From Roseivirga sp. (GTDB taxonomy: Bacteria; Bacteroidota; Bacteroidia; Cytophagales; Cyclobacteriaceae): a stretch of 35,579 bases of DNA. The position numbers and the translations under genes were made by a program. Positions 7,275 through 33,244 of this stretch are shown here, one piece after another. Where the stretch lies: the NCBI GenBank assembly GCA_029262895.1, contig JAJCYM010000071.1, positions 1 through 35,579 of the forward strand, in the 5' to 3' direction. The first letter of the stretch is position 1, and each line of letters starts with the position of its first letter. The notes below the pieces were generated by a model. The model was given only the letters and a program-made list of their open reading frames with translations, was not told where the DNA came from and searched no databases.

Positions 7275-7468
7275 GTGCAGATTATTAGAGATAATCGTAA
7301 ATTGAAGAGTAGTGGTTTTGGAGTACTTAACCTGTCTATCAGTAATTATTGTGATACTAGAGGCAAACCATTACGATTAAAGCTTTCGGAACGACCTCTA
7401 ATAAAAATGTTTGCAACAGTTTTTGGTTGCTATTTCCCATCTAATCATTTTGACGTTATTATTCGGAT

Positions 7469-10462
7469 TTAATTACCCAAATATTTTAACTTTTCATCAT
7501 TTCTCAAAGGTCGTCCGGCTTGCAATTTGGCTACCCGAATAAGTTCGTCCGGATTAATTGTCCAATATCTAATTGTTCCATCGCTGCCTCCAGATATTAG
7601 GAATTGGCCATCATCGCTAAATTTTAAACCTCCAATCTCTGTAGTGTTGATAAAATTGGTTGGAACTACTTGACCTTGTTCATCATGCGAGTATAAACCA
7701 GGACGGCTTGAAAGATCATGTCCTATGAAAGGAGAGCCAATTTGAAGGAAGTTGTCCAAACTCCATAATCGAATAGTCCCATCTTCGCTTGAGGAGGCTA
7801 TAATTTTTTTCTTCGGGTGAAACGTTAAAGAAGTTATACCCTCTTCATGTCCAGTAAGTCGGACCGGTAAAATATTAAACTTAATGGCATCAATTAACAG
7901 TATCTCACCGCTAAATTCATCGCCTAATGCAATTAAAGTCCCTTCATTATTATATGATATTTTAGAAAAATTGTCATCTTCAGCTAGCATTATTTGTTTA
8001 ACAATTGTTCTTTTTTTCAGGTCAAAGAAAATAATCTTACCACCATCGGTTAGAAGGGTTAAAAGACCAGTTTTTGCTTGAAACTCAAGATTAATAATCC
8101 CCTCCCCTTCAAATGAACTGTCCTCTATTAAATAATTGGTCTTATTATGAGCACTGTAGATATTTATTAGAGTTCCTGTTTCGTCTAAAGTTGCAATAAT
8201 ATTGTTGGTTTCATCTGAAATCATCGTATACGGTACGAAATCATTATCAAATATTAGAGTATCAACCAATCTGTTATCAACTAAATCGTAAACAATAATT
8301 CCTTCTTCATCAAGTAAACAATATAGTTTACTCTCAAGAATTTTAATACTATAAACTGGTTGATCATAGGCAAACTCAAAACTACTGACAGGTATCGGTT
8401 TTGATCCAAATTGTAATGGCTCCCTTAATTCTGTTGCTTTCTTTAAATCCCAAAATCTTATACTACCGTCATAGCCGGATGAAATAATAAGATTATTGTT
8501 ATGATTAAAAACAACATTTGTTATATCCCCAATATGGCCATATAATGGCTGACCTGTTTCATGTCCTTCCTTGCTAACATTCCAAACACTAATATTGCCG
8601 TCATTCCGAGCTACGGCAAGTCGCTTCAGAGCTTTGCTGTAGGCAATTTTTGCATTATATTTTTCATTATAAATCCAGTCCTGGCCGTAATTAGTTGAGG
8701 TAACTGTGCTGTTTTTCCAATCCCAAACCAAAAATATGCCGTTTGGATACATTGCAACCAATAGAGAGTCCGACTGATTTAAAAAAGAAATGTCTGTTAC
8801 GCTTGAGAATCCATAATTACCGTAAACAGGCAATGGTAAAGCCAAACTATCTATAGATTTGTTTTCTGACAAATTCCATAGTCGAACAATACCGTCTGCT
8901 CCCCCTGAAGCTATAACACCCTGTTGATTGTTAATTGCAGCGGAATAAACATTGTAGTTAGAAAATATACTAGGAACCACCTTACCCATATGTTCTCCCA
9001 ACAATTTATCAAGTAGCTTGTTTTCTATGTCCCAAACTTGAATGTCGCCAGATTCATCGCCTGTTATCAATTTGTTTCCATTACTACTTAAGCTAAGAGA
9101 ACCTACCCCATATAAGTTGTAATGTTGATTATCGCTATTATTCATTACAACTAGGCTATCCATCAAAGTCAAATCCTCATCAGATACCTTCCATATATAA
9201 ACCTTGCCATTTGTACAGCCACTAAATAATAGATCTCCATCAGGACTAAATTGGAGTGACGAAAACTTTGAAATGTCATTATTTGATTTTGCTTGGAAAC
9301 CATACTCTTTTTCGACCAATTTATTTGTACTGTAGTTAATTAGCCTAATTGTCGAGAAATAGTTAGAATCGATACCGGTAAGCGCAATTAGTTGGTTTTG
9401 ATCATTGAACGTCATTTGATCAATTCCTGTAAGGCCATTTTCAAATACTTTTACGGCAGCCTGAGTCTCCTGACCACTCTTGATGTCCCAATACCTAACA
9501 TATCCATCTAAGCCTGCTGAAATTAGTATATTGTCCTTTTCGTTGAATATGATGCTTGAAGCCGAACTGGTCGCATCTTCGCCATCAGTGCCATGTAACA
9601 TGGCTTCAAGTTGAGGCCTTAGTTGAGGGAGATTAAGTAAAAGGGAGTAGGCTTCATCTGTTGGCCATATTTCATAAGCTTCAATTGCTAATAAGTTGGC
9701 CAATTCAGGGTCATCCAATGATAGACGTTGAGCAATAATGGCTAAATACCTTGACTCGGCTATTGCTTTTTCCCTCAGCGCATCATTTCTCTGAAATAAG
9801 GCAAAGACAGTTAAAAAGGACAACATTAGAATTGTTATTCCAATAGCAACTCTAAAGGCTCGCTTTGCGACTAAAGCTTCCTTAATTATTTCATCTGGTT
9901 TTTTCCCCAGTAATAGCGCCTTTATTTTGGCAATTTCCCATTGATAATAAGCATTGTTTTTATCTACCTTACCTTGCAGTATATATTGCCCAATATTTCC
10001 CCAAATGGGTAAAGACTTAAAGAGTTTTGTCTCGAATGAGGGTAGTGCGGTTGTTTTTAGCTTATTGAAATCTTGATTTTGGTAATCCCATTCAACTACA
10101 TCATCAATTAGAACAAAATTAAAATTGGTAATAAAACCTTCTTCATCATAGTTCAATTTGTGCCATTGAATTATTTCTTCCTTAACCCATTTGGATGCTG
10201 CCGAATTTTTTGAAGCAATTACTATCAGGTAATTCGAATTTTTAAGTCCGTTAACGATTTGATCCGTTAGGCTTCCCGACAGTGGGATTTTTCGCTCATC
10301 GCGGAAAATATGAACATTAGTCTGCCACTTTTTATAGAAGGGCAAACCTAAGGTCTCTATAGATTTTTGAATTTGCGTAGCAAATTCCCTATCGGTATGC
10401 GAGTAGGAAATAAATGCGTCATATTTTTTGTTATGGGCTAAGTTTATTTTGTTTGCTTCCAT
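7469..10462 (-). CDS. TIR - transmembrane - WD40 repeat protein
   Basis: 997 residues. Residues about 13-155 are a TIR domain: YDAFISYSHTD at 14-24, a BB-loop-like region near 54-65, and SKWVKEEI (90-97) with glutamates in the position of the catalytic Glu of TIR NADases. One membrane helix follows (about 204-222), then a linker (SRYLAIIAQRL, LANLLAIEAYEI) familiar from signalling proteins that carry WD40 sensors. From about 300 to 985 there are at least twelve recognisable blade ends (YWD, IWK, VWD, LWN, VWD, VWN, FWD, YDL, FDL, LWS, YWT), enough for two seven-bladed propellers. TIR should sit on the cytosolic N-terminal side; whether the propellers are periplasmic cannot be settled from sequence. 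The start lies 32 bp inside the SLATT gene, so translation is probably coupled. No NTPase domain is present. Expected role: sensor-effector in a conflict system (inference). Confidence 0.85.
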   Translation of the reverse strand: MEANKINLAHNKKYDAFISYSHTDREFATQIQKSIETLGLPFYKKWQTNVHIFRDERKIPLSGSLTDQIVNGLKNSNYLIVIASKNSAASKWVKEEIIQWHKLNYDEEGFITNFNFVLIDDVVEWDYQNQDFNKLKTTALPSFETKLFKSLPIWGNIGQYILQGKVDKNNAYYQWEIAKIKALLLGKKPDEIIKEALVAKRAFRVAIGITILMLSFLTVFALFQRNDALREKAIAESRYLAIIAQRLSLDDPELANLLAIEAYEIWPTDEAYSLLLNLPQLRPQLEAMLHGTDGEDATSSASSIIFNEKDNILISAGLDGYVRYWDIKSGQETQAAVKVFENGLTGIDQMTFNDQNQLIALTGIDSNYFSTIRLINYSTNKLVEKEYGFQAKSNNDISKFSSLQFSPDGDLLFSGCTNGKVYIWKVSDEDLTLMDSLVVMNNSDNQHYNLYGVGSLSLSSNGNKLITGDESGDIQVWDIENKLLDKLLGEHMGKVVPSIFSNYNVYSAAINNQQGVIASGGADGIVRLWNLSENKSIDSLALPLPVYGNYGFSSVTDISFLNQSDSLLVAMYPNGIFLVWDWKNSTVTSTNYGQDWIYNEKYNAKIAYSKALKRLAVARNDGNISVWNVSKEGHETGQPLYGHIGDITNVVFNHNNNLIISSGYDGSIRFWDLKKATELREPLQFGSKPIPVSSFEFAYDQPVYSIKILESKLYCLLDEEGIIVYDLVDNRLVDTLIFDNDFVPYTMISDETNNIIATLDETGTLINIYSAHNKTNYLIEDSSFEGEGIINLEFQAKTGLLTLLTDGGKIIFFDLKKRTIVKQIMLAEDDNFSKISYNNEGTLIALGDEFSGEILLIDAIKFNILPVRLTGHEEGITSLTFHPKKKIIASSSEDGTIRLWSLDNFLQIGSPFIGHDLSSRPGLYSHDEQGQVVPTNFINTTEIGGLKFSDDGQFLISGGSDGTIRYWTINPDELIRVAKLQAGRPLRNDEKLKYLGN

Positions 10463-10880
10463 TTTTCTTATGAATATATTTATTCCAAGAAGAGTTTTCT
10501 TTGCTTATCAAGCTTTCTATTCTTTCTACAAACACACTGAATGCAAAATCTTTTATATTATAAGGTTCTGCATTAGTTAGATAAAGAAATTTCTCGTGCT
10601 TCACCGTTTCAACTGTAGTTCTATATTCAATCCATTTCTTTTCTAATTTGAGCATTGAAGATATTCCAGTTATTATAGTTATTAAGAGACCAAAAATGGC
10701 AATGATATAATTTATGTTAAATTCTTTTGATTGTATACCTGCTAAAAAAGGTATGAGGGCGGCAAAAATAATTACTAAAATCTCTTTCCAAACGAACATT
10801 CGCTTGTTGATCTTAGCTTTCTTTTCATACCAATTTATTTGATCATCAACTCTATCTAAAATGTATTCTTTTTCGGTCAT
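10431..10880 (-). CDS. SLATT / DUF4231 two-TM membrane protein
   Basis: 149 residues. It shows the pattern of the DUF4231/SLATT family: a leading RVDDQINWYEKKAKINK helix, two hydrophobic helices (about 33-47 and 55-72), then LEKKWIEYRTTVETVKHEK, and a C-terminal FVERIESLISKENSSW. SLATT proteins are proposed pore-forming effectors in nucleotide-centred conflict systems, usually beside a sensor or nucleotide-making enzyme. The ATG at 10880 is preceded by GGAGAAAC at a good distance. Its 3' end overlaps the TIR-WD40 start by 32 bp, which ties the two into one unit. Family assignment is strong by motif; the pore role is inferred from published analysis of the family. Confidence 0.85.
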   Translation of the reverse strand: MTEKEYILDRVDDQINWYEKKAKINKRMFVWKEILVIIFAALIPFLAGIQSKEFNINYIIAIFGLLITIITGISSMLKLEKKWIEYRTTVETVKHEKFLYLTNAEPYNIKDFAFSVFVERIESLISKENSSWNKYIHKKNGSKQNKLSP

Positions 10881-10948
10881 TTGTTTCTCCGGTTATTAAT
10901 TGCATTCCAGCTAAAAAGCGCTGCTGTCCAAAGGGCAACTATGATTTT

Positions 10949-11098
10949 TTAGCCATTGATATATGCTTTTATTAATTCATCTTTTATCTCTTTTATCCAT
11001 TCAATATCTTGATTCCTTTCTTCTCTGATCTCTAGAAATTTTTGAATGTTATTTGCTGTAGTTTTTGGTTCCCATTTTTCCCTTATGCATATGAGCAC
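10949..11098 (-). pseudogene. Small ATG-less reading frame, possibly a gene remnant
   Basis: Between the TIR gene and the SLATT gene the minus strand has an open frame ending at TAA 10949-10951. It has no ATG; the only starts are GTG at 11098 (49 residues) or TTG at 11113 (54 residues). The encoded peptide is charged and helical (FLEIREERNQDIEWIKEIKD), has coding-like composition and a natural-looking C-terminus. It could be a small protein using a rare start, or the C-terminal remnant of a deleted gene. No family recognised. Confidence 0.35.
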
Positions 11099-11120
11099 TT
11101 TAATATAAAACAATACGGTT

Positions 11121-11513
11121 TCATTTTGTGGCTAATTCTTGTAATCGCTCTTCACTCCAGTCGTAAAGAAAAATCCCATTGTCTTCTAAGGCTTTAGGCT
11201 TTTTGCCATTGGTATCCTTTAGCCTAATAGCGTATACTGGTTTTTTATTGGCGATAGCCATTTTGACTTCTTCTCGAACCCATCCACTTGAATGTGTCTT
11301 TTCACCGACAAACACAATTGTCCGTGATGTTCCAGTCATGGCTTTGGTTATTGCTTGACGTATAACGGAACCATCTTCTGTATTCCATCTTTTTAATAGA
11401 TCCTTAACAAGAAAATTTAAATTATTATAGAAGGGATTAACCGCACGCCCCTTTGTTGTTAATACAACACCTCGATCGGCTTCTGTAAAACTGAAAAATA
11501 CTACGTTTGGCAT
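11121..11513 (-). CDS. ThsB-type TIR-like protein (DUF1863/MTH538 group)
   Basis: 130 residues, a stand-alone domain. It has VVFFSFTEADR at the N-terminus, a central TSRTIVFVGEKTHSSGWVREEV and PVYAIRLKD, matching the layout of the MTH538/ThsB TIR-like family: strand A with SF-x-x-x-D, strand D with a conserved E-K-T, a W-V-x-E-E helix and an AIRL strand. ThsB proteins of Thoeris systems make cyclic-ADP-ribose-type signals from NAD on phage infection and activate a partner, ThsA. No ThsA (SIR2-SLOG) gene is adjacent, so the partner, if any, would be one of the neighbours. It sits 64 bp downstream of the DrHyd-like gene on the same strand. Confidence 0.8.
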   Translation of the reverse strand: MPNVVFFSFTEADRGVVLTTKGRAVNPFYNNLNFLVKDLLKRWNTEDGSVIRQAITKAMTGTSRTIVFVGEKTHSSGWVREEVKMAIANKKPVYAIRLKDTNGKKPKALEDNGIFLYDWSEERLQELATK

Positions 11514-11577
11514 ATCATTTATTTTAAGTTAGTAATCATTGTTCTTCTGTATTGCGTTCATAGATAATTAGGATCAG

Positions 11578-12315
11578 TTATTTTTTATCCAGTGATATTC
11601 TTCCAGTATTTCCTTTTGTTTCTACATATGAAACATTCCAAGGAATGATATCCAAGTCTTTTATTGGGTCATCTTCACTAACATAGAGTAATTGAGGGTC
11701 TATCTTCTCAGTAGGCTTATCTATACGGAACTCGTTGAAATGGAAAATCAATTTGATAAGTCCGTGACCAATATGAGGACTTTCAATCTTGAAATTATAT
11801 AGGTTATTTTCTTTGCCAACAATCTTCTTTGAAAAGAATATGGTCTGACTTTCTTTTAAATCTATTCGGTAGGAATCTCTTGAAGCTTCGGAAAAAGTCT
11901 TTTCCAAATCATCCTTTAACTCATTGAGTCCTTCATCCGAATCTTCATAGAGAATGCATCTAAATTGTTTAAGGTCAAATGGGACAAACTTAATATCCTG
12001 TGCTACCATCACTACTTTTCCCATTTCTTTCACAGAATGGGCAAGTCCTAACTCATAAAACACATTTGCATTTAAGTCCGTTAGGTCGGCAATTATGAAC
12101 TCTGATTCAATTATTTGGTCTAAAATAGTCTGTAGTATATGCGGTCTATGAACGTCATCACCACGAACGCACATAAGATTAATTTTTTCAGATTGCAGTG
12201 TGTTTTTGAAAATTTCATAGACCTTATTAAACTTATGTGCGAACGGCATAATTACAAAGCAAGAGCCCTTTCTAATTTTTCTCTTCTGGCTGTCAAAGTA
12301 ATTTTTTGGATACAT
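11578..12315 (-). CDS. Nucleoside 2-deoxyribosyltransferase-fold (DrHyd-like) protein with C-terminal extra domain
   Basis: 245 residues from the ATG at 12315 (a GTG two codons earlier is also possible). Residues about 17-125 form a Rossmann-like domain: CFVIMPFA (19-26), FIIADLTDLNANVFYELGLAH (outline only; Glu88 in the ELG motif) and FVPFDLKQFRCILYE. This matches nucleoside-deoxyribosyltransferase/DrHyd proteins, in which that Glu is catalytic, and which occur as NAD- or nucleotide-hydrolysing effectors next to TIR and SLATT genes. Residues about 155-245 are a beta-rich region not recognised. Likely first gene of the block; a probable terminator of the upstream molybdoenzyme lies 70 bp before it. 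The enzymatic activity is not demonstrated by the sequence. Confidence 0.7.
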   Translation of the reverse strand: MYPKNYFDSQKRKIRKGSCFVIMPFAHKFNKVYEIFKNTLQSEKINLMCVRGDDVHRPHILQTILDQIIESEFIIADLTDLNANVFYELGLAHSVKEMGKVVMVAQDIKFVPFDLKQFRCILYEDSDEGLNELKDDLEKTFSEASRDSYRIDLKESQTIFFSKKIVGKENNLYNFKIESPHIGHGLIKLIFHFNEFRIDKPTEKIDPQLLYVSEDDPIKDLDIIPWNVSYVETKGNTGRISLDKK

Positions 12316-12385
12316 TTTCACTTTCTAATTGGTACCAAGGGTTACATAATCCCCAAAAACCCCACTCGATTTTAAATGGTCTTTC

Positions 12386-12430
12386 AAAAAGGCTTATCAG
12401 ACCCCTCATCAGGTTCCATAATGAGCCTTT
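12386..12430 (-). terminator. Possible terminator after the molybdoenzyme gene
   Basis: On the minus strand, AAAGGCT and AGCCTTT form a 7-bp stem around a 29-nt loop, followed by TTTTT in total. It lies 28 bp after the stop codon at 12459. The long loop makes it weaker than a textbook terminator, but its position and T tract fit separation of the purine-type operon from the TIR block. Confidence 0.4.
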
Positions 12431-12458
12431 CGATCAATTCACATCCACCTCCTTCCCC

Positions 12459-19520: not shown

Positions 19521-21770
19521 TTACTGTCCTGACAGGATTTCAGTTAGTTCAGCAATAACCCGATCCACATTCTCTTTGGTAAAGCACAGCGGAGGCTTGG
19601 TCTTTAGAACACTGTCGAATGGGCCATCTGTGCTGACCAGAATATGTCGGTTTCTAAGTTCGTTTTTAAGGTGCTGGGCCAGTTCGGTGTTTGGGGTGAG
19701 GTTGTCATCTTTGATAAGCTCCATGCCTATAAAAAGCCCGGAACCCCGGACATCACCTATTACAGGAAAGTCTCTTTGCAGATTGCGCAATTGCTCCATA
19801 TAATAAGCACCAACCTCAAGGGAATTTTGCTGGAGGGCTTCTTCTTCAATCACCTCCAGTACTGCTGAACCAATCGCGCAAGAAACCGGATTGCCTCCAA
19901 AAGAGCTAAAGAACTCCATACCATTGTCAAAGGCTTCGGCAATTTCATCGCTGCACACGACAGCACCCATCGGATGGCCATTGGCCATGGGCTTGCCCAA
20001 CACCACGATATCTGGAATTACATTGTGCATTTCATAACCCCAGAAATGTGTGCCCAATCTACCAAAACCGGTTTGCACCTCGTCACTAATGCAAACACCA
20101 CCGCAAGCCCGAATAAAGGGATAAACCTGCTTTAAATACCCATCAGCCAGTGGTACTTGTCCTCCACAGCCGACAATGGGTTCTGCAATGAAACCAGCCG
20201 TTGGGATTTCAGATTTTAGGATTTGGGATTTTAGATTTTCGGCATAGCGTAAACCGGCATTGTTATCTTGGAATTCCCCACGGTAAGTGTCTGGGATATT
20301 AGCCTCAATAATATGATCAGCCCTTCCCTTGCCGCCTTTGCTGGCATATTTATATTGACTGATATCAACACCCATTCGGGTATTGCCATGGTAGCCATGC
20401 TCCATCACTACCATTCCCTGTTGACCAGTGTAGTTTTGCGCTAATCGAACCGCCAAATCGCTGGCGGCACTGCCAGAATTTACAAAGTAGACTTTGCTTA
20501 AAGAGTCTGGAAACTTAGCAAGTAGTTTTTCAGCGTACTCAGCCAATTCATCATAGAGGTAGCGCGTGTTAGTATTGAGTTGCGCCATTTGTCTTTGACC
20601 TGCTTCAATCACTCTAGGGTGTTGATGGCCAACATGTGGTATGTTGTTATAAGCGTCCAGGAAGGTATTGCCTTGCTGGTCGTACATATACTGGAAGGCT
20701 GCTCCAGCCATATAGATAGGGTTCTTATAGGAAACCGATAGAATGGAGCTTATAGATTGATGCCTTCTTTGCAGGGCTTCTGACGGAGTGGATACAGGCT
20801 CGATTTCAAAACCGGCAGCTTTGTAAAACTGATTTTTAGCATAGATAGGATTGATGGTAATCCATTTCCTAAGCAAGTCCCAGGCAGGTGCTTCGCTAAG
20901 CACGATATATTGGTTGTCAGGTTGCACCTTTTTCTCATTCGCTGTAGTACATACGCCCATGCACAACCTTCCAGCAATCAGGTAGTAAAGTAGATCCAAC
21001 TCTTGCCGCAAAAGAGGGAATTCCTGGTGATAGCCTTCAATCAAGTAGCAGGCCCATTTGATAGGGTCTTCCTTGCCAAATAGGGCATATGGAGCTGCAA
21101 TGGCTAATTCATTGATGATTGGTGTTCGGGTGCAATCGCCAAAGTCGATAATTCCTGAAACCGAATCGCCATCAACTAGGAGGTTCCAATCATTGGCATC
21201 ATTGTGAATGATTGACTGTCTTAATAACGGTAACTTGGGATAAACATGTTGATCCCATTGTAAAAAGAAATGGTCGACCAGTTTCCGGTCTTCCGGTGCT
21301 GATACGTGATGTCTGAGCTGGCGACTTACATGGATATTCATTAAGTCCCAATCCAGTTCCCGAGCTTCGATCCCTACATTTCGAAAGTTCAGCAGCTGTT
21401 TATCCATTTTAGCAATAAATGCACCTATTGATTTGAACAGGGCAGGACTATGTTTTGCATCGGCTAGAAAGGTGCCTTCTACAAAGGAAAGGAGCCTCAA
21501 CATTTTCTCTTCTCCCTCAACTTTCGCTATGGTGACTATCTCATTTTTCCTATTCAATATAGGTCTGGAAACCTGGTCTCTCGATAAATAATCCAGCTGC
21601 TCAATGACGGCTGTTTCTGCAAGCACGTCCTCCTTTTCTGAAGTAGGGTAAACCTTTAAAACGAATACGCCTTGATCGGAATCAACACGATAATTTGTGC
21701 TGATATATCCCTCCATTTTCTTTAATGAAGTGTTCGACAAACCGTAATGTTCTAAAAGGAGTGATTCCAT
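19521..21770 (-). CDS. Fusion of APH-type kinase and class III aminotransferase / phospho-lyase
   Basis: 749 residues with two enzymes. Residues about 15-290: aminoglycoside/choline-kinase fold, with the catalytic loop SIIHNDANDWNLL (His189, Asp191, Asn196) and the metal-binding DFGD (209-212). Residues about 325-745: class III PLP enzyme, with GSAASDLA (433-440), SDEVQTGFGR (Asp563) and LGKPMANGHP, Lys593 being the Schiff-base lysine. In animals hydroxylysine kinase and 5-phosphohydroxylysine phospho-lyase, or ethanolamine phosphate phospho-lyase, belong to these same two families, so the fusion may phosphorylate an amino alcohol and then eliminate phosphate. A conventional transaminase partner is the alternative. 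Cytoplasmic, single gene, 84 bp before the sulfatase end. Confidence 0.85.
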   Translation of the reverse strand: MESLLLEHYGLSNTSLKKMEGYISTNYRVDSDQGVFVLKVYPTSEKEDVLAETAVIEQLDYLSRDQVSRPILNRKNEIVTIAKVEGEEKMLRLLSFVEGTFLADAKHSPALFKSIGAFIAKMDKQLLNFRNVGIEARELDWDLMNIHVSRQLRHHVSAPEDRKLVDHFFLQWDQHVYPKLPLLRQSIIHNDANDWNLLVDGDSVSGIIDFGDCTRTPIINELAIAAPYALFGKEDPIKWACYLIEGYHQEFPLLRQELDLLYYLIAGRLCMGVCTTANEKKVQPDNQYIVLSEAPAWDLLRKWITINPIYAKNQFYKAAGFEIEPVSTPSEALQRRHQSISSILSVSYKNPIYMAGAAFQYMYDQQGNTFLDAYNNIPHVGHQHPRVIEAGQRQMAQLNTNTRYLYDELAEYAEKLLAKFPDSLSKVYFVNSGSAASDLAVRLAQNYTGQQGMVVMEHGYHGNTRMGVDISQYKYASKGGKGRADHIIEANIPDTYRGEFQDNNAGLRYAENLKSQILKSEIPTAGFIAEPIVGCGGQVPLADGYLKQVYPFIRACGGVCISDEVQTGFGRLGTHFWGYEMHNVIPDIVVLGKPMANGHPMGAVVCSDEIAEAFDNGMEFFSSFGGNPVSCAIGSAVLEVIEEEALQQNSLEVGAYYMEQLRNLQRDFPVIGDVRGSGLFIGMELIKDDNLTPNTELAQHLKNELRNRHILVSTDGPFDSVLKTKPPLCFTKENVDRVIAELTEILSGQ
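20201..20240. repeat. Short degenerate repeat inside the fusion gene
   Basis: About 40 bp built from imperfect units of GGGATTT/AGATTTT type. It is in frame and encodes part of NLKSQILKSEIPT between the SDEVQ-upstream helix and the FIAEP strand. The unit resembles simple ATTTTGGG-type repeats seen between genes of Bacteroidota; here it lies in a coding region at a surface helix. Confidence 0.45.
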
Positions 21771-25579: not shown

Positions 25580-27999
25580 TTGCTTGAAGGATTAAGAGTT
25601 TGAGAAAAAAGTATTCTGTCAGAAACCTGATCCGCTGATTTCATAAACAGGGCTTCAAAGTACTTTCCGGCCGCCCAGTCATCAATCATATTGTCGTAAT
25701 ACTTACTACCGGGATTACCTGATTGACCTCCCGGATAAATGGCCCAGGCTTTTGGTGTCTCAGCTAATTCGACAATCATTCGCCAGGAAGGACCGTGGTT
25801 TCGGCTTGTAGCATTGACAATACCGCCATTGCCTCCAATAGGTAAGTTGAACCTGGAGAAAGCAGGTAAGGCCTGAAGCAAGTGGCCCACGAAGGTTCCC
25901 TTGTAATTTCCCCAATTGTATGAGCCCTTGTCTTTGAGTTTTTGCAAATCTTCTGCTGCCTCCAAAAAGGATTTAAGAAAGAGGTCTTTGGCCGTTTCAA
26001 CTTCAGAAGTTTCCATAATATCGAAAAATTGGAGATCCGGTTGATTCTTCATTAACCAGATGGTCTGATTGGATTTTGGAAAGTTCAGGGCGATGGAATC
26101 GATCTGCATCTCATCCCAAGCCATGACATACAGACGTTGCCACCACCTTTCCCAGATTGTTGGCCCATTTTCACCTATTTCATTAAAGTAGTTCCACTGA
26201 CTGACTTCATCGAAGAATGCTCTTTGGTCAGCCGTTAGCCCTGAAACATCAGTGCTGTCTAACAGCGTTGGCAATAGCATTGCGGCCTTGAGGTTGTAAT
26301 TGTTGTTGTGCAGGGCCTTAAAGTCATCCAGAGTTACCTTGTCTTTTGACCTGAAAAAATCATTGATCACCCTGTTTCTGTAAGCCTCATAGCTGTGGTC
26401 ATATACATAGTATGGGTAGTTCTCATCAGTAGGGTGTTGGTTGGCGGAACTTACAAAACCTCTTTCAGGGTTTTTCACATGTGCGTTGTGCTCCTGTGGT
26501 ATAAAGTCTTGCCATTCATGTTTGGAGGTCGAACCGTCCATTAAAAATTTACCCTGCTCAGGCCATTTATTAGCAAACTTACCCTGAACCCAAAGAGCAA
26601 TATCTCCAGTAGTGGAGGCAAAAACGAAATTTTGGGCAGGTGCAGAAAAGTGAACCAAAGCACTTTTATACTCCTCATAATTTCGGGCCTTATTCAGTTC
26701 CAAAAGAGTCTGTTGATTGTTACTTGGCATATGGCCTGTCCACTTCATGGCGTAGCCCACCTTCTCATTTGTACTGCCAAAGGAATGGTCATAACTCACT
26801 GGTCCGTGATGGGTGTAGATCACGGTGTCGTACACCGATTTGGCTCCTCGAACCTTAATTTCCTCGATAGTCTTAGTTGTTGCCCTCCAAGCTCCGTCAT
26901 AGCGATAGGCAGAACGCGAATCATCTTGAAATTCAATTTTGTACCAGTCTTTTACATCTCTTGTAGCATTGGTCACTCCCCAGGCAATGGAATCGTTGTG
27001 ACCAATGACTATGCCTAGTGCACCTGGTAAAGTGACACCGAATGTTCTTTTTTCTGGTGTTGACAGCTGCATGGAATACCAAATGGAGGGTAGGTTAAGT
27101 CCCAAATGTGGATCATTGGCCAGCATGGCGTTGCCGTTGGCCGATTTTTCTGGAGAAACGGCCCAGTTGTTACTTCCATTGTGGGGATGTGGTTTGTCCA
27201 TGGTTTGAGAAATGAAATCAGTGGGAAAGGTGGTTTCGGGTTTTTCAGGAATTGTACCATCTACATCACTCCAATCCTTTTCCCCTGGGATGACAGGATC
27301 CTGATTAGCATAAAAATCAGGATACAATAGATCAAAAACCTCTTTTCCCCAGAGTTTTAAGGCGTTGGTGTTTTCCAGGTCTGCATCTCCTCCAGCCAAC
27401 ATATCTGTCATATACATTAGGAGCAATGCGGTTTTTTCTAAAGTCCAGAGCTCTGGCTTGTAATCAAGAAGCTTGTATTCTACTGGAAGGTCAGCGTTTG
27501 ATAAAGTGTTTATATAACTATTGATACCATCCCTATAAGCCTCAATCAGTTTTTTCTGAGTTGGGTTTTCAGACATCATCTTCACGGTATTTTGAGCACC
27601 AAATACCATCCCCTTTCTGCGCTGACCCTTGTCATAATCGATGGCTTGGGCTCCAACAATTTCTGAGAGCCGTCCAGCTGAAGCGTGGGTTTGAAATTCC
27701 ATTTGCCAAAGCCTGTGCATTGAGGTGATATAGCCTTGTGCCCTGTAGAGGTCCTCATCGTTTTGAGCAAAGACATGAGGAATTAGCTTGTCGTCATAAT
27801 GCACGCTCACAGGTTGAGACAGTCCTTCAATGTTAATCGCCTCATTTGGGGAATCGGTTTCGGTGATTTCATTTTGCCAAAACCCATGAAAGGGATCGAG
27901 GAATTTTCCAAGTGGAGGGATAATCCCAAATTTGGTATTTAAGCCATAAAAAATACCCAGCGTAAGCAATAGGCTGAGTAAAAATTTCATGTATTTCAT
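25576..27999 (-). CDS. Penicillin-acylase-family (Ntn hydrolase) enzyme
   Basis: 807 residues from the ATG at 27999; a GTG at 28026 is possible but lengthens the protein past the hydrophobic N-terminus. A signal-anchor (FLLSLLLTLGIFYGL) suggests periplasmic or membrane-tethered placement. The alpha part has YRAQGYITSMHRLWQMEF and SAGRLSEI, typical of the family. Autocatalytic cleavage should expose Ser276 in GSNNW (nucleophile), followed by SPEKSANGNAMLANDPHLG and the conserved NATSRNHGPSWRMIVEL near the C-terminus. Homologues deacylate beta-lactams or acyl-homoserine lactones; substrate here is unknown. Its 5' end and upstream region are duplicated at 30730-30947. First gene of a run of four with overlaps of 4 bp or gaps under 10 bp. 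Confidence 0.9.
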   Translation of the reverse strand: MKYMKFLLSLLLTLGIFYGLNTKFGIIPPLGKFLDPFHGFWQNEITETDSPNEAINIEGLSQPVSVHYDDKLIPHVFAQNDEDLYRAQGYITSMHRLWQMEFQTHASAGRLSEIVGAQAIDYDKGQRRKGMVFGAQNTVKMMSENPTQKKLIEAYRDGINSYINTLSNADLPVEYKLLDYKPELWTLEKTALLLMYMTDMLAGGDADLENTNALKLWGKEVFDLLYPDFYANQDPVIPGEKDWSDVDGTIPEKPETTFPTDFISQTMDKPHPHNGSNNWAVSPEKSANGNAMLANDPHLGLNLPSIWYSMQLSTPEKRTFGVTLPGALGIVIGHNDSIAWGVTNATRDVKDWYKIEFQDDSRSAYRYDGAWRATTKTIEEIKVRGAKSVYDTVIYTHHGPVSYDHSFGSTNEKVGYAMKWTGHMPSNNQQTLLELNKARNYEEYKSALVHFSAPAQNFVFASTTGDIALWVQGKFANKWPEQGKFLMDGSTSKHEWQDFIPQEHNAHVKNPERGFVSSANQHPTDENYPYYVYDHSYEAYRNRVINDFFRSKDKVTLDDFKALHNNNYNLKAAMLLPTLLDSTDVSGLTADQRAFFDEVSQWNYFNEIGENGPTIWERWWQRLYVMAWDEMQIDSIALNFPKSNQTIWLMKNQPDLQFFDIMETSEVETAKDLFLKSFLEAAEDLQKLKDKGSYNWGNYKGTFVGHLLQALPAFSRFNLPIGGNGGIVNATSRNHGPSWRMIVELAETPKAWAIYPGGQSGNPGSKYYDNMIDDWAAGKYFEALFMKSADQVSDRILFSQTLNPSSK

Positions 28000-28085
28000 A
28001 GGCACTTCAAAGGGGTTAATCAGCACTAAATATAGACAAAACTATGCCATTTCAAGCCAACCAGATTCTTGTTTCGCATGATTCC
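27867..28085. repeat. Direct repeat copy A (5' end of acylase gene plus upstream)
   Basis: About 219 bp covering the first 44 or so codons of the acylase gene and 86 bp upstream. It is matched by 30730-30947 in the same orientation, roughly 90 percent identical by eye with one 1-bp indel. Copy A belongs to the intact gene. Confidence 0.85.
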
Positions 28086-28522
28086 TGATTGGGCTATTAT
28101 GATTGGGGAAAGCCCAAATTGAAATTTGTTCATAAACTGAAATGGTTTAAAAGGTAAGGCTCTTCTAATGAACGCTTATTTTTATATATTTAGCACTATC
28201 GTCTTTACTGTCTATGGGATTTCACACGCTCAATAAAGTCAAAACCAGAGTTAACCATAACTTATATCTTGAGATGCCACAAATACAGACAGAAACAATT
28301 ACTACTATGATGGAAAGTGGAGAAGAGTATTACCAAATTGATTATGGAGACAGATACAGAGGTTCTGAAAACATTTTTTCAGACCAATAAAATGCTTACG
28401 GATAGCAGGCAGACAGTTCGTGGTAGGTAATGGATATTATATGAATAAGGATTTCCAGAATAGTGCATGATTCCTTAGGAAAAAGATGGTAGCTTAAAAA
28501 AAAATAGACAGAATCGGTTTTA
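28086..28522. other. 437-bp intergenic region left of the glycan genes
   Basis: No complete gene. It begins with a 7-bp inverted repeat TTGGGCT/AGCCCAA (28089-28117, 15-nt loop) without a T tract. A 22-codon frame at 28168-28236 reads MNAYFYIFSTIVFTVYG before stopping; FTVYG starts resemble small EmrE-like membrane proteins of O-antigen clusters, so it may be a gene remnant. A 38-codon frame starts at about 28274. Neither is convincing as a functional gene. Many stops in all frames suggest decayed sequence. Confidence 0.45.
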
Positions 28523-29095
28523 ATGAATTTTTTTATTCACAAGTCCTCGTTTGTAGATGATGGCTGCACCATTGGTGCAGGTACTAAAGTTTGGCACTTT
28601 TCACATATAATGAAAGGTGCTGTTATAGGGGAAGGTTGTAATATCGGCCAAAACGTTGTGGTTTCTCCTGATGTAGTTCTAGGCAATAATGTTAAAGTAC
28701 AAAACAACGTTAGCATTTATACAGGAGTGGTTTGCGAAGATGATGTGTTCCTAGGTCCATCAATGGTGTTTACGAATGTAACTAACCCCAGGAGTGCAAT
28801 TATAAGAAGAGATGAGTATAAAAAAACGGTGGTTAGAAAGGGAGCTACAATTGGCGCTAATGCCACTGTAATATGTGGCAATGAAATAGGCTCGTTTGCT
28901 CTTATCGGGGCTGGGACCGTTGTTACAAAGTCAGTTGCAGCCTTTGCTCTGATTGTGGGAAACCCAGGCAAGCAAGTTGGATGGGTGAGTGAATATGGCC
29001 ACCGTCTGGATTTTAATTCAGAGGGTTTTGCCACGTGCGAGGAGAGTGGCCAGAAGTATGAATTAAGAGGTAACAAAGTTGTTCAAATTTCATGA
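28523..29095 (+). CDS. wbpD: WbpD/WlbB-like N-acetyltransferase (left-handed beta helix)
   Basis: 190 residues with the hexapeptide repeat pattern throughout (GAGTKVWHFSHIMKGAVIG, GQNVVV, VKVQNNVSIYTGV). The opening KVWHFSHI, the IYTGVVCEDDVFLGPSMVFTN stretch and the end EYGHRLDF with ESGQKYEL are typical of UDP-2-acetamido-3-amino-2,3-dideoxy-glucuronate N-acetyltransferase. The enzyme acetylates the 3-amino group to make UDP-di-N-acetylglucuronate, a precursor for surface glycan. Overlaps the next gene by 4 bp (ATGA). The WbpA dehydrogenase and WbpE aminotransferase of the pathway are not in the window. Confidence 0.88.
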   Translation: MNFFIHKSSFVDDGCTIGAGTKVWHFSHIMKGAVIGEGCNIGQNVVVSPDVVLGNNVKVQNNVSIYTGVVCEDDVFLGPSMVFTNVTNPRSAIIRRDEYKKTVVRKGATIGANATVICGNEIGSFALIGAGTVVTKSVAAFALIVGNPGKQVGWVSEYGHRLDFNSEGFATCEESGQKYELRGNKVVQIS

Positions 29096-30075
29096 AGACA
29101 TTTGCTTTAATAGGTGCGGCGGGATACATCGCTCCAAGACATTTTAGAGCCATTAAAGATACTGGAAATATTTTGGTTGCTGCTCTGGATAAGTTTGACA
29201 GTGTAGGGATTATTGATTCATACTTCCCCAATGCCGATTTTTTTACAGAATTTGAGCGTTTTGACAGGCATCTGGAAAAGAATAGACATAAGGGCGAAAA
29301 AGTTGATTATGTGTCTATTTGTTCACCCAATTATTTGCACGATGCACATATACGTTTTGCTTTAAGGAACAATGCCCATGCCATATGTGAGAAACCTTTG
29401 GTATTGAATCCTTGGAATTTGGATAGCCTCAATAATATTGAGAAAGAAACTGGAAAAACAGTATTTACTATTCTCCAATTAAGACTTCATTCAGCGGTTC
29501 GAGAATTGAAGAAGTATGTGGATAACAGTCCATCCGGAAAAATATTTAATGTTGACTTGACTTATATTACATCTCGGGGCAACTGGTACTATGCCTCATG
29601 GAAGGGAGATCATGCCAAATCTGGGGGGATAGCGACTAATATAGGAGTGCACTTTTACGATATGTTGGGTTGGATTTTCGGAGAAGTTAAATCCAGCGTT
29701 GTACATGAGCATACTCATGATAGGGCTGCGGGTTATATTGAATTTAACAAAGCACGCGTCAGATGGTTTCTTTCAATAAACTCGCAAACTTTGCCTAGGG
29801 AAGTGGCAGTGAGTGGTCAAACCACTTATCGATCGATTCAGGTTGAAGGGAGAGAGTTGGAATTTTCTAGTGGCTTCACTGATCTCCACACAGATTCTTA
29901 TGCAGATATATTAAATGGAAACGGGTTTAGACTAGAAGATAACAAAAGAGCAATTGAACTTGTGCACGGTATTCGCTTTGCAGACCCGATAGGTCTTAAG
30001 GGAGATTATCATCCTCTGGCAAAACGAAAAAATACTAATCACCCCTTTTTATCCAAGACGAATATAAGTGAGTAA
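29092..30075 (+). CDS. wbpB: WbpB/WlbA-like UDP-GlcNAcA 3-dehydrogenase (Gfo/Idh/MocA family)
   Basis: 327 residues. N-terminal Rossmann motif ALIGAAGYIAPRHFRAIK, then DYVSICSPNYLHDAHI and CEKPLVLNP (the EKP of the family, with the Lys involved in catalysis). The C-terminal part has LRLHSAVRELKKYV and GGIATNIGVHFYDMLGWIFG with a catalytic His. These stretches match WbpB, which oxidises the 3-hydroxyl of UDP-N-acetylglucosaminuronate for transamination by WbpE; WbpD then acetylates. Here the order is acetyltransferase then dehydrogenase, translationally coupled. Intact, unlike the next gene. Confidence 0.88.
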   Translation: MKTFALIGAAGYIAPRHFRAIKDTGNILVAALDKFDSVGIIDSYFPNADFFTEFERFDRHLEKNRHKGEKVDYVSICSPNYLHDAHIRFALRNNAHAICEKPLVLNPWNLDSLNNIEKETGKTVFTILQLRLHSAVRELKKYVDNSPSGKIFNVDLTYITSRGNWYYASWKGDHAKSGGIATNIGVHFYDMLGWIFGEVKSSVVHEHTHDRAAGYIEFNKARVRWFLSINSQTLPREVAVSGQTTYRSIQVEGRELEFSSGFTDLHTDSYADILNGNGFRLEDNKRAIELVHGIRFADPIGLKGDYHPLAKRKNTNHPFLSKTNISE

Positions 30076-30727
30076 TAAGCAAGACGATTGGGATCTGATT
30101 ATTGAGCCCAAAAGCTCCATTTTCGATCTTAAGACCAGAGAAATATTAAACTATAGAGACTTTCTGTTTGTGAGATATAGTTGCTCAGTACAAGCAGACT
30201 ATACTGGAGCCTCTTTGGTATTTCATACAACCCATCCTCACTACCCTGACATATACATTGATTTTCGGTAAAGTTGCAGGTCTGTCAACTGACGGGTTAC
30301 CAAAAAATCTCTTCTATTTGGCTGGGGTCACATGTTGGAGATATTTAGTACTGATTCACTGACTAAAACATCAGAAACCTTTACTCAGAATGCCGAGATA
30401 TATGGAAAGGTCTATTTTTCACGAGCCATCGTACCAATACTGGTCACTATTACCAACTTTATTACGTTTGGGATCCAACTTCTTCTTCTTTTCATAGCAA
30501 TTGGTTTTTATCGAATATCAGGAAATTTCAATGTAAGATTTCAGAATTAGGTCTTCTTATTTCCTATCCTCGTATTAATGATGATGCTTCTGGGACTCGG
30601 TTTTGAACTTTCGGCCTTGACGATGAAATATCGTGACTGGGAGTTTTTGATTGCTTTTAGCGTACAACTATAAATGTAAAGGACACCAGTGATTTATTCG
30701 CTATAGACAATACCTACAAAGTATAAG
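30068..30727 (+). pseudogene. Decayed Wzm-type ABC-2 polysaccharide export permease
   Basis: The pieces DDWDLIIEPKSSIFDLKTREI, AQYKQTILEPLWYFIQP, FGKVAGLSTDGLPKNLFYLAGV, TKTSETFTQNAEIYGKVYF and LSALTMKYRDWEFLIAFSVQL (each seen separately) together make an O-antigen ABC permease of about 280 residues. They lie in two reading frames: the first part is read from GTG at 30068, a shift near 30185 moves the frame, a second near 30328 moves it back. Stops follow at 30548 (TAG) and about 30670 (TAA), and others before TPVIYS. The C-terminal part is missing; the sequence runs into repeat copy B at 30730. No ATPase partner in view. Confidence 0.85.
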
Positions 30728-30729
30728 AT

Positions 30730-30947
30730 ATTCATTTTCCAAAACCCATGAAATGGATCAAGAAATCTTCCAAGGGGAGGGGTAATTCCAAATTTGGTAT
30801 TTAAGCCATAAAAAATACTCAGAGTAAGCAATAAGCTGAGTAAAAATTTTATGCATTTCATAGGCACTTCAAAGGAGTTAGTTAGCACTAAATATAAGTA
30901 AAAATATGCCATTTCAAGCCAACCAGATTCTTGCTCCGCATGATTCC
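30730..30947 (-). pseudogene. Direct repeat copy B: fragment of the acylase 5' end and upstream
   Basis: Second copy of 27867-28085, same orientation. It contains the start (ATG 30859-30861) and about 44 codons of an acylase-like N-terminus (MKCIKFLLSLLLTLSIFYGL), then a 1-bp deletion and a stop as it meets the permease remnant. The upstream part (30862-30947) matches the promoter region of the intact acylase. It is a non-functional fragment. From its end to kdsC are 54 bp with no gene. Confidence 0.85.
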
Positions 30948-31001
30948 GAATCATTATGTTAGATGGATATTTAATACTATTTTTGTTCAAACCTAGGCAC
31001 T

Positions 31002-31550
31002 GTGTCCATAGATTCAGACATTCTACAAAAAGCAAAGACCATTCGAGCCATCTTCTTTGATGTTGATGGGGTTTTAACTGACGGGGGAATTCTCTACGAT
31101 AATTCGGGTCAGGAATACAAAAGATTCAATGTCAAGGATGGTCAAATCATCAAATATTTGAGGCAATCGGAAATTATCACCGGTGTCATTACCGGGCGGT
31201 CTTCACAAGTGGTGAAAAACCGTTGTGAGGAGTTGAAAATTGATGTTCATAAGCATGGTGTAAAATACAAGCTGGAAGTGTTTGAGCAATTGCTTCTTGA
31301 ACAAGGCTTAGAAGCTGAACAAGTAGCATTTATTGGCGATGACATTAATGATCTTCCCGTTTTGATTACATGTGGACTGAGCGCCACACCGGCTGATGGC
31401 CATAAGGCTGTAAAGGACAATGTCGATATGGTATTGGAGACAAAGGGGGGGTATGGCGCACTGAGAGAGCTTGCGGATTTTGTACTACAAGCGCAGGGTT
31501 TATATGATGGTATAATCGAAAATTTGAAAAGGGGAGATGGAGCGATTTAA
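31002..31550 (+). CDS. kdsC: 3-deoxy-D-manno-octulosonate 8-phosphate phosphatase
   Basis: 182 residues, HAD family without a cap domain. FFDVDGVLTDGGI supplies Asp20 and Asp22; TGRSSQVV and GDDINDLPVL complete the active site. Size and the KHGVKYKLE stretch fit KdsC, which dephosphorylates Kdo-8-phosphate. The start is GTG at 31002; no ATG precedes the catalytic motif. It overlaps kdsA by 14 bp. Confidence 0.9.
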   Translation: MSIDSDILQKAKTIRAIFFDVDGVLTDGGILYDNSGQEYKRFNVKDGQIIKYLRQSEIITGVITGRSSQVVKNRCEELKIDVHKHGVKYKLEVFEQLLLEQGLEAEQVAFIGDDINDLPVLITCGLSATPADGHKAVKDNVDMVLETKGGYGALRELADFVLQAQGLYDGIIENLKRGDGAI

Positions 31551-32367
31551 AGAAGGCTTTCACATCACTGACGACATATATTTGGGTGGTGGCAAGATGG
31601 TTTTGTTCTCAGGACCATGCGCCATTGAAAGTTATGAGATTTGTGCACGGGTAGCAGAAAGGTTAAAGGAAATTTGCGAAACACTGGATATTCAATATAT
31701 ATTCAAAGCATCATTCGATAAGGCTAACAGAACTTCCGTAAATTCATATCGCGGAGGAGGGTTGGAAGAAGGGTTGAATGTATTAAGAAAGATCAAAGAC
31801 CAATTCGATCTTCCTATTGTCACCGATATTCACGAGCCAAATCAAGCTGGCCCTGTGGGTGACGTGGCGCAAGCATTGCAAATCCCCGCTTATCTCTGTA
31901 GACAAACCGACCTTTTGATAGCCGCAGGCAAAACTGGAAAAACCGTAAAAATTAAACGAGGCCAATTTATGGCACCTGAAGACATGCAATATGCGGTCGA
32001 CAAGGTTAAATCAACGGGAAACATGAAGGCCTGTCTGACCGAACGCGGTGCATCCTTTGGCTATCACAATTTAGTAGTAGATATGCGTTCCTTGCCCACA
32101 ATGAGACAATACGCTCCAACTATATTTGACGTTACTCATAGTGTGCAACAACCAGGCGGTCAGGGTGGAAGCTCAGGCGGGCAAAGAGAGTTTGCCGGCT
32201 ATCTGGCTCGTGCAGCCGCTGCGACAGGAGTGGATGGTTTCTTTGTTGAAACACACCCCGATCCAGAAAATGCCAAGAGTGATGGACCTAATATGATCCC
32301 ATTGAATAACATAAAATCCTTTTTGGAGATGTTAAAAGTAGGGTTTGAATACGGTAATTCGTATTAG
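31537..32367 (+). CDS. kdsA: 3-deoxy-8-phosphooctulonate synthase
   Basis: 276 residues, typical length. FSGPCAIES, FKASFDKANRTSVNSYRG, PIVTDIHEPNQAGPV and FDVTHSVQQPGG are the conserved KdsA stretches, covering phosphoenolpyruvate and arabinose-5-phosphate binding. It condenses these two to Kdo-8-phosphate for lipid A core. The ATG at 31537 lies inside kdsC and follows AAAAGGGGAG as ribosome site. Confidence 0.95.
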   Translation: MERFKEGFHITDDIYLGGGKMVLFSGPCAIESYEICARVAERLKEICETLDIQYIFKASFDKANRTSVNSYRGGGLEEGLNVLRKIKDQFDLPIVTDIHEPNQAGPVGDVAQALQIPAYLCRQTDLLIAAGKTGKTVKIKRGQFMAPEDMQYAVDKVKSTGNMKACLTERGASFGYHNLVVDMRSLPTMRQYAPTIFDVTHSVQQPGGQGGSSGGQREFAGYLARAAAATGVDGFFVETHPDPENAKSDGPNMIPLNNIKSFLEMLKVGFEYGNSY

Positions 32368-32421
32368 ATGGATTAGACCGCAAGGTTTAGGTATATATGG
32401 GTTCTGGTAAATTAAAATAAG

Positions 32422-33243
32422 ATGATTAAAAAGATAGTTGGGTTTGTGATTTTTGCGGCTTTAGTTTCTTCATGTATTCCCAATGAGAGGGTTATCTATT
32501 TGCAGAATAAGGAAGATGTTCCTGAGTTGGGTTTAGACACTTTGATTCAGTTGAATCGTCAAGAATATGTGCTACAGCCTAACGACAGAATTACTCTGTC
32601 CTTTTATTCTGAGCAAGAACAGTCGGTCGAAAAATATAATCGAACCGGTAGTGTCGCTGCTCTTGCGGCTAACAGAAGCAACAATAACCAGGCTCAAGGT
32701 GGTAGCGCGGAAGGCACCATAGCTGTCTTTGATTTGGATAAAGAGGGTTTTATTGAAATCAATACTTTGGGAAGAGTTGTGGCCTCAGGTTTTACATTGC
32801 GTGAATTAAAATTTGAACTTGAAAAGAAAATTCGAGAAGAGGCTGGGGTTAAGGACATCTTGGTTCGCGCTGGTCTCGCGGGTATTCCTTACACCATTTA
32901 TGGGGAGATTAGAGGTGGGGGATCCAGTACCATCTTTAAAAATGAAGCTAACATTATCGAGGCCATTTCCAATGCTGGTGGCTTGAATATCAATGCTGAC
33001 CGTGCACATGTTCAGATTTTCAGGCAATATCCTGATGGTGCCCGGGTGCATGAGGTGGATGTAACAGATAGAAATTTGATGACATCGAAATTCTATTACA
33101 TTCAACCGAATGACATGATTTATATTAAACCATTGAAAATAAGGGAGCTAGGAGCTGGCTCAGCAGGCCTACAGAATTTTTCTCTGATTATCGGTACCGT
33201 TTCCAGTGCATTCATCATAATTAATCTTCTCGGGAATAATTGA
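32422..33243 (+). CDS. Wza-like polysaccharide export lipoprotein
   Basis: 273 residues. Signal with lipobox (LVSSC, Cys18), then YVLQPNDRITLSFYSE, the poly-export domain entry, and a first beta-grasp part at about 45-150 with GFIEINTLGRV. YTIYGEIRGGGSSTIFKNEANI resembles the SLBB domain. C-terminal hydrophobic segment SLIIGTVSSAFIIINLL (255-271) should cross the outer membrane as in Wza-type proteins. It is followed after 1 bp by the Wzc-like gene, the usual order in Bacteroidota capsule and exopolysaccharide loci. Confidence 0.88.
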   Translation: MIKKIVGFVIFAALVSSCIPNERVIYLQNKEDVPELGLDTLIQLNRQEYVLQPNDRITLSFYSEQEQSVEKYNRTGSVAALAANRSNNNQAQGGSAEGTIAVFDLDKEGFIEINTLGRVVASGFTLRELKFELEKKIREEAGVKDILVRAGLAGIPYTIYGEIRGGGSSTIFKNEANIIEAISNAGGLNINADRAHVQIFRQYPDGARVHEVDVTDRNLMTSKFYYIQPNDMIYIKPLKIRELGAGSAGLQNFSLIIGTVSSAFIIINLLGNN

Positions 33244-33244
33244 T

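Follow-up and report, generated by a model that had tools for sequence, protein, structure and literature searches.

An apparently broken module within a block of candidate conflict genes

The window analysed here is the whole of a 35,579-nt stretch of Roseivirga sp. contig JAJCYM010000071.1 (GCA_029262895.1), and all coordinates are positions in it. Within it, a minus-strand block at 7469–12315 encodes, in transcription order, a DrHyd protein, a ThsB-type TIR protein, a SLATT protein, and a protein that combines a TIR domain with a transmembrane (TM) helix and a WD40 beta-propeller (TIR-TM-WD40). A first-pass annotation had read these four genes as a single candidate conflict system. The four minus-strand open reading frames (ORFs) are present where it placed them, and its domain identities are upheld by Pfam and NCBIfam scores for the ThsB-like TIR, SLATT and WD40, and by a weak PADLOC match, a motif and the predicted fold for DrHyd. 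The features of the block are collected in Table 1.

Table 1. Features of the block and of its borders, with positions in the window
Feature	Position	Strand	Description
Weak terminator-like hairpin	12375–12445	−	Between molybdopterin dehydrogenase gene and block; fold −17.9 kcal/mol, z −1.76
DrHyd	11578–12315	−	245–247 aa; Rossmannoid domain (nucleoside-deoxyribosyltransferase/TIR-like) at 15–144 and all-beta C-terminal part at 148–244
ThsB-type TIR	11121–11513	−	130 aa; seemingly orphaned member of a ThsB/DrHyd-TPR-S pair
Apparent DrHyd-TPR-S deletion scar	10949–11124	−	First 8 codons (11124–11101) and last ~50 codons (11101–10949), in different frames
SLATT	10431–10880	−	149 aa; SLATT_1/DUF4231 two-helix membrane protein
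TIR-TM-WD40	7469–10462	−	997 aa; TIR, single TM helix and WD40 beta-propeller; 32-bp overlap with SLATT
Weak terminator-like site	7413–7430	−	Directly 3′ of TIR-TM-WD40; from terminator scan

The stop codon of the ThsB-type TIR gene and the start of the SLATT gene are 240 bp apart, and this gap appears to hold the two ends of a fifth gene. An ATG overlapping the ThsB stop opens with MKPYCFIL, where the DrHyd-TPR-S protein of a Desulfatibacillum locus (L020) opens with MKPYCFVL; seven of the eight residues are equal, a match too short to carry weight by itself. Where this match stops, a stretch of ~50 codons in a different frame begins; it matches the C-terminus of the same L020 protein with 56.5% identity over 46 residues (tblastn against the whole window, E 5.6e-10). 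Residues 9–393 of the 442 in that protein have no counterpart in the gap, meaning that about 385 codons are gone. In the Desulfatibacillum locus an intact DrHyd-TPR-S gene, with MAP3K_TRAF_bd and TPR-S domains, lies directly after the ThsB gene. The scar site is matched by half of the ten DrHyd-TPR-S-like proteins used as queries (L020, L107, L108, L109 and L110; E 5.6e-10 to 3.8e-5) and is unmatched by the others (L022, L111, L112, L113 and L115), of which the L022 protein is too diverged to match. TPR-S was confirmed by Pfam in L020, L022, L107, L108, L111, L112 and L113, and L109, L110 and L115 were assigned by BLAST. The DrHyd part of the L020 protein alone also matches the block’s upstream DrHyd gene, at ~34%.

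In its simplest reading, the scar appears to be the result of one internal deletion of a DrHyd-TPR-S gene. Given the scar and the intact Desulfatibacillum layout, the ThsB-type TIR has apparently lost its partner to this deletion and been left an orphan. The block accordingly resembles a mosaic built from several modules, one of them broken, and not an intact four-gene system. Neither the contents of the gap nor the 32-bp overlap between the SLATT and TIR-TM-WD40 genes had been recorded in the first-pass annotation.

The ThsB-type TIR and its partners elsewhere

The 130-aa TIR scores 49.2 bits against ThsB_TIR (PF08937; cut-off 21.2) and matches a solved relative, 8fz9, at E 6.1e-57 over 130 residues; no paper naming 8fz9 was found in the literature searched. 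Its family profile also matches the solved structures 9b7d (named ThsB1; E 2.9e-6) and 6lhy (DUF1863; E ~3e-6). The AlphaFold model of the protein was poor (mean pLDDT 66.6) and was left unused. Glu82, in a WxxxE motif, is invariant in all 39 aligned sequences, the window’s included. At conserved positions the window’s copy carries one private change (T86A), and at least one such change is found in 18 of the 39, again counting the window’s. We take the conserved Glu of TIRs and DrHyd to be catalytic, from work on TIRs and deoxyribosyltransferases; it is kept in all three enzymes of the block (DrHyd, the ThsB-type TIR and TIR-TM-WD40).

For a defence-type TIR this family is unusually conserved: sequences aligned to the window’s are 62–92% identical to it and come from sources such as Psychroflexus, Vreelandella and Desulfatibacillum, which with the other sources presumably represent several phyla. 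In all, 705 proteins reach E 1e-3 or better, and among the 120 matches listed the 119 from elsewhere are 75–92% identical. At E 1e-12, only its own genome among 237 of the class has a match (1/237), and at E 1e-3 six of 148 genomes of the family do, its own included, the best matches in the other five being weak (E 6e-7 to 3e-4). Plasmids yielded distant matches only (identity <60%), and phage records yielded no ThsB relatives. A scan of IMG/VR with the window’s exact 8-residue patterns for ThsB, DrHyd and the TIR-TM part, SLATT not being tried, found no relatives of these three. Viral carriage of the block is unsupported in these searches.

An exact 8-residue pattern scan returned six ThsB loci in GTDB contigs. 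By Pfam, the gene directly downstream encodes DrHyd-TPR-S in two of them, L020 from Desulfatibacillum (ThsB 77% identical to the window’s) and L022 from a Bacillus metagenome-assembled genome (72%), and a double SLATT_3-SLATT_1 protein of 290–311 aa in four (L021, L023, L024 and L025); L021 has a further TIR beyond the SLATT gene. A TIR-WD40 gene lies near ThsB in none of the six, which argues against a single four-gene system.

Two other loci combine all three classes of protein. L113:983–4907, from a genome of the same class, is a five-gene row of DrHyd-TPR-S, TIR, TIR, double SLATT and TIR, and L119:4342–7444 has three consecutive same-strand genes, for SLATT, a ThsB-type TIR and a 402-aa DrHyd-like protein (assigned only by BLAST, E 3.6e-12). 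Generic relatives of the window’s DrHyd occupy 43 places outside its own genome; surroundings were examined for 23 of these, in 22 regions, and BLAST with four SLATT queries found SLATT in one region (L113). Operons mixing DrHyd, ThsB-type TIR and SLATT recur in other gene orders; because of rows such as L113 and L119 on the one hand and the 1/22 on the other, the mixing is real but loose. Clustering of these three classes outside the window, which the first-pass annotation proposed to look for, is supported by L113 and L119 and by the partners directly beside ThsB (6/6). In the count of neighbours that it suggested, SLATT accompanies ThsB in 4/6 loci, TIR-WD40 does so in 0/6, and SLATT is found at DrHyd in 1/22 regions.

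SLATT and TIR-TM-WD40

The SLATT protein scores 83.1 bits against DUF4231, 46.6 bits against SLATT_1 and 120 bits against the NCBIfam SLATT_1 model, and has two hydrophobic peaks. It is of the single two-helix type and is 39–48% identical to the SLATTs of L084–L088 and L119. Of 24 SLATT places outside its own genome, six (L084, L085, L086, L087, L088 and L119) have a Pfam-verified TIR neighbour on the same strand and three (L063, L066 and L074) have one on the opposite strand; none was verified in the other 15. These counts are lower bounds, because Pfam was applied only to neighbours with a TIR-like appearance and the majority of the loci span only ~3.4 kb. The order SLATT then TIR, with both genes on one strand, is seen in L084, L086, L087, L088 and L119; a Natronomonas plasmid shows it too, as does a Staphylococcus chromogenes plasmid, with a 7-bp overlap. 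L084 also holds a 167-aa gene that is DrHyd-like by eye; as it has no match in Pfam or PADLOC, we do not take this locus to be a proven DrHyd-TIR-SLATT set.

TIR-SLATT neighbourhoods were reportedly first described by Burroughs et al. in 2015. In the literature searched we found none that pairs DUF4231 with TIR, or TPR-S with DRHyd, and we do not claim that these pairings are unpublished. Passages of one paper report TIR-SLATT gene neighbourhoods for Firmicutes phages and predict SLATT to be a signal-gated membrane effector (PMC9503650), and a passage of another states that DRT10 phage defence requires a SLATT gene (PMC12632851).

The TIR-TM-WD40 protein scores 156.7 bits for WD40 and has one hydrophobic peak, at residue 205. 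Ten close relatives share 52–63% identity with it over the first 290 residues, and Glu96 in its WxxxE motif is invariant in the 11 aligned sequences, counting the window’s own.

The DrHyd protein

The DrHyd ORF (12321–11578) encodes 247 aa from a GTG, and the 245-aa database form fits an ATG at 12315. At E 0.1, Pfam gives no match for the 247-aa form; the assignment comes from a weak PADLOC match (27.1 bits), an NVFYELG motif and the predicted fold, and the protein shares with the DrHyd class a predicted Rossmannoid fold with a conserved Glu. The predicted fold is nearest to SPARTA TIRs, DNPH1 and deoxyribosyltransferases; this comparison barely covered the C-terminal beta part (148–244), for which no new fold is claimed. 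In the reading preferred below, the protein would be a further module, NADase- or nucleoside-hydrolase-like, its predicted fold fitting TIR NADases and N-hydrolases about equally. Going by this model, DrHyd with its beta part would be an uncharacterised stand-alone enzyme.

Among the DrHyd loci, L093:2737–7936 has its DrHyd gene flanked by two copies of an IS91-type transposase and phage-integrase pair (Pfam run on one copy), an arrangement that resembles composite-element cargo.

Composition and borders of the block

The first-pass annotation had also described the block as more AT-rich than its neighbours, and in a scan of the whole window (4,850-bp windows, 50-bp steps) the block is indeed the lowest-GC stretch of 4.85 kb, with a G+C fraction (GC) of 0.347 near 7,400 against a mean of 0.420 (sd 0.028). 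Its genes have a GC of 0.28–0.38, compared with 0.46–0.47 for the flanking multicopper oxidase and molybdopterin dehydrogenase genes; the former, with a Yip1-domain protein, lies on one side of the block and the latter on the other. To judge from this low GC, the locus was probably acquired horizontally. Pfam recognised no mobility genes among the 15 window proteins scanned, and Rfam gave no match at gathering scores across the whole window. Of the loci obtained from 39 related genomes, four (L009–L012) were checked for an empty insertion site; none was shown, because molybdopterin dehydrogenase was present only as BLAST segments of 27–52% and no multicopper oxidase lay within the 4–6 kb checked.

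The terminator proposed ahead of the block survives in part: there is a plausible hairpin with a U-tract, but it is weak, since 12 of 200 shuffles fold equally well, and it is absent from the list of a simple terminator scan. In the region as a whole, terminator-like sites on both strands number 4, against 3.2 expected.

Elsewhere in the window, a second region of lower GC (0.36–0.43) at 27500–35579 has several plus-strand ORFs, one of them a Gfo/Idh/MocA oxidoreductase, and an APH-type kinase domain is fused to a class-III aminotransferase at 19521–21770.

Interpretation of the locus

We consider the locus, with a probability of about 0.5, to be a composite conflict locus with a SLATT and TIR-TM-WD40 core, a left-over ThsB module and a stand-alone DrHyd. 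It is most likely a variant of known TIR/SLATT/DrHyd conflict loci, with a presumed role in defence, and its domain content supports the earlier view of it as nucleotide- or NAD-centred. The working core would most likely be the overlapping SLATT and TIR-TM-WD40 genes, seemingly a variant form of the SLATT-TIR pair already known. In the mechanism we propose, the WD40 propellers would sense an infection cue or a partner, and the tethered TIR, which retains its catalytic Glu, would then cleave NAD+; an NAD-derived product, or the loss of NAD itself, would trigger the SLATT membrane effector, and its activation would lead to abortive infection. The ThsB-type TIR would be what is left of a second module, ThsB with DrHyd-TPR-S, whose second gene, as seen in the sequence, has been almost wholly deleted.

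Several observations weigh against this composite reading. The pairing of SLATT with TIR-TM-WD40 depends on their 32-bp overlap and on comparison with plain SLATT-TIR pairs, because SLATT does not stand beside the relatives examined: BLAST found it beside none of four distant TIR-WD40 relatives (L082, L083, L105 and L121), three of which come from two overlapping genome samples, 296 of the phylum and 237 of the class, and the fourth from a Streptomyces plasmid. At L083:3545–8774 the position that SLATT holds in the window is taken by a TrkA_N-RyR gene, which overlaps the start of the TIR-WD40 gene and whose product may be another ligand-gated partner. For one close relative, P0247, the precomputed domain list shows no WD40, and on a Halocatena plasmid (L104:3962–8369) a DUF4231/SLATT gene has a SAVED gene and type III-A Csm genes as neighbours, its (incomplete) gene table listing no TIR. 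With its single private change, the ThsB-type TIR is not visibly decaying and may still be functional, so that either the deletion happened recently or ThsB still has a role. In addition, misassembly could mimic the deletion, because the analysis covered a single assembly of the block.

If ThsB still serves, it might do so through SLATT. Having lost DrHyd-TPR-S, it would drive the adjacent SLATT by an NAD-derived signal, with TIR-TM-WD40 as an extra sensor. We regard this as a tentative and less probable alternative: the ThsB gene is intact and nearly undrifted, and SLATT comes next after members of this TIR family in the four loci described above, but their SLATT partners are double proteins of 290–311 aa whereas the window’s is the 149-aa single type, and the window’s SLATT gene overlaps the TIR-WD40 gene instead. 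A related and rather doubtful proposal is that of partner exchange, in which ThsB lost DrHyd-TPR-S by the one internal deletion and its signal has come to control SLATT and the WD40-gated TIR, or to be read by them; ThsB would then have been kept intact because its NAD-derived signal serves the neighbouring effector pair. If the composite reading is right, the block would show partner swapping in NAD-signalling defence, with one TIR family, two downstream partner classes and one of these erased here.

The model of the first-pass annotation, in which the four proteins work together as an integrated signalling system, we judge improbable. The genes do share a strand and a low GC, with no long gap except at the scar, and L113 and L119 mix DrHyd, ThsB-type TIR and SLATT in one gene run. 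A single exact four-gene system is not supported, given that a fifth, partner gene was apparently lost from within the block, that TIR-WD40 is missing near ThsB (0/6) and SLATT beside the distant TIR-WD40 relatives (0/4), that ThsB family members elsewhere have different partners, and that the close stand-alone DrHyd family (~250 aa) is seen in genomic context only in the window. It is highly improbable that all the modules are inactive relics in an AT-rich insertion hotspot: one is broken at the scar, but the other four genes are similar in length to their relatives and keep catalytic residues where any exist.

Comparison with known systems

Searches of the four block proteins with Pfam, PADLOC and NCBIfam, which did not extend to the rest of the genome, found neither ThsA (SIR2-SLOG or TM-macro) nor a CD-NTase cyclase; from cyclic-oligonucleotide-based antiphage signalling systems (CBASS) there was only a weak match of DrHyd to the CBASS-effector ‘TIR’. 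In Thoeris, as passages of PMC11204291 describe it, ThsB TIRs produce nucleotide signals for ThsA. The window’s 130-aa gene resembles Thoeris in matching Pfam ThsB_TIR and the solved ThsB1 structure 9b7d, but the partner class of its family is DrHyd-TPR-S or SLATT, not ThsA. From SPARTA TIR and DNPH1-type N-hydrolases the DrHyd protein differs in being only 12–17% identical to them and in its extra C-terminal beta part.

With the pair of ThsB and DrHyd-TPR-S the window shares a TIR of the same 130-aa family and, placed as in L020, both ends of the partner gene; in contrast to L020, the partner gene itself is deleted and only these two ends remain. With TIR-SLATT neighbourhoods it shares a two-helix SLATT gene directly beside a TIR gene, their reading frames overlapping as in S. 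chromogenes. It differs from them in the TM helix and WD40 propellers that its TIR carries, and in that a further TIR and a DrHyd lie upstream. A WD40-gated membrane TIR coupled to SLATT, if true, would be an untried form of the TIR-SLATT pair.

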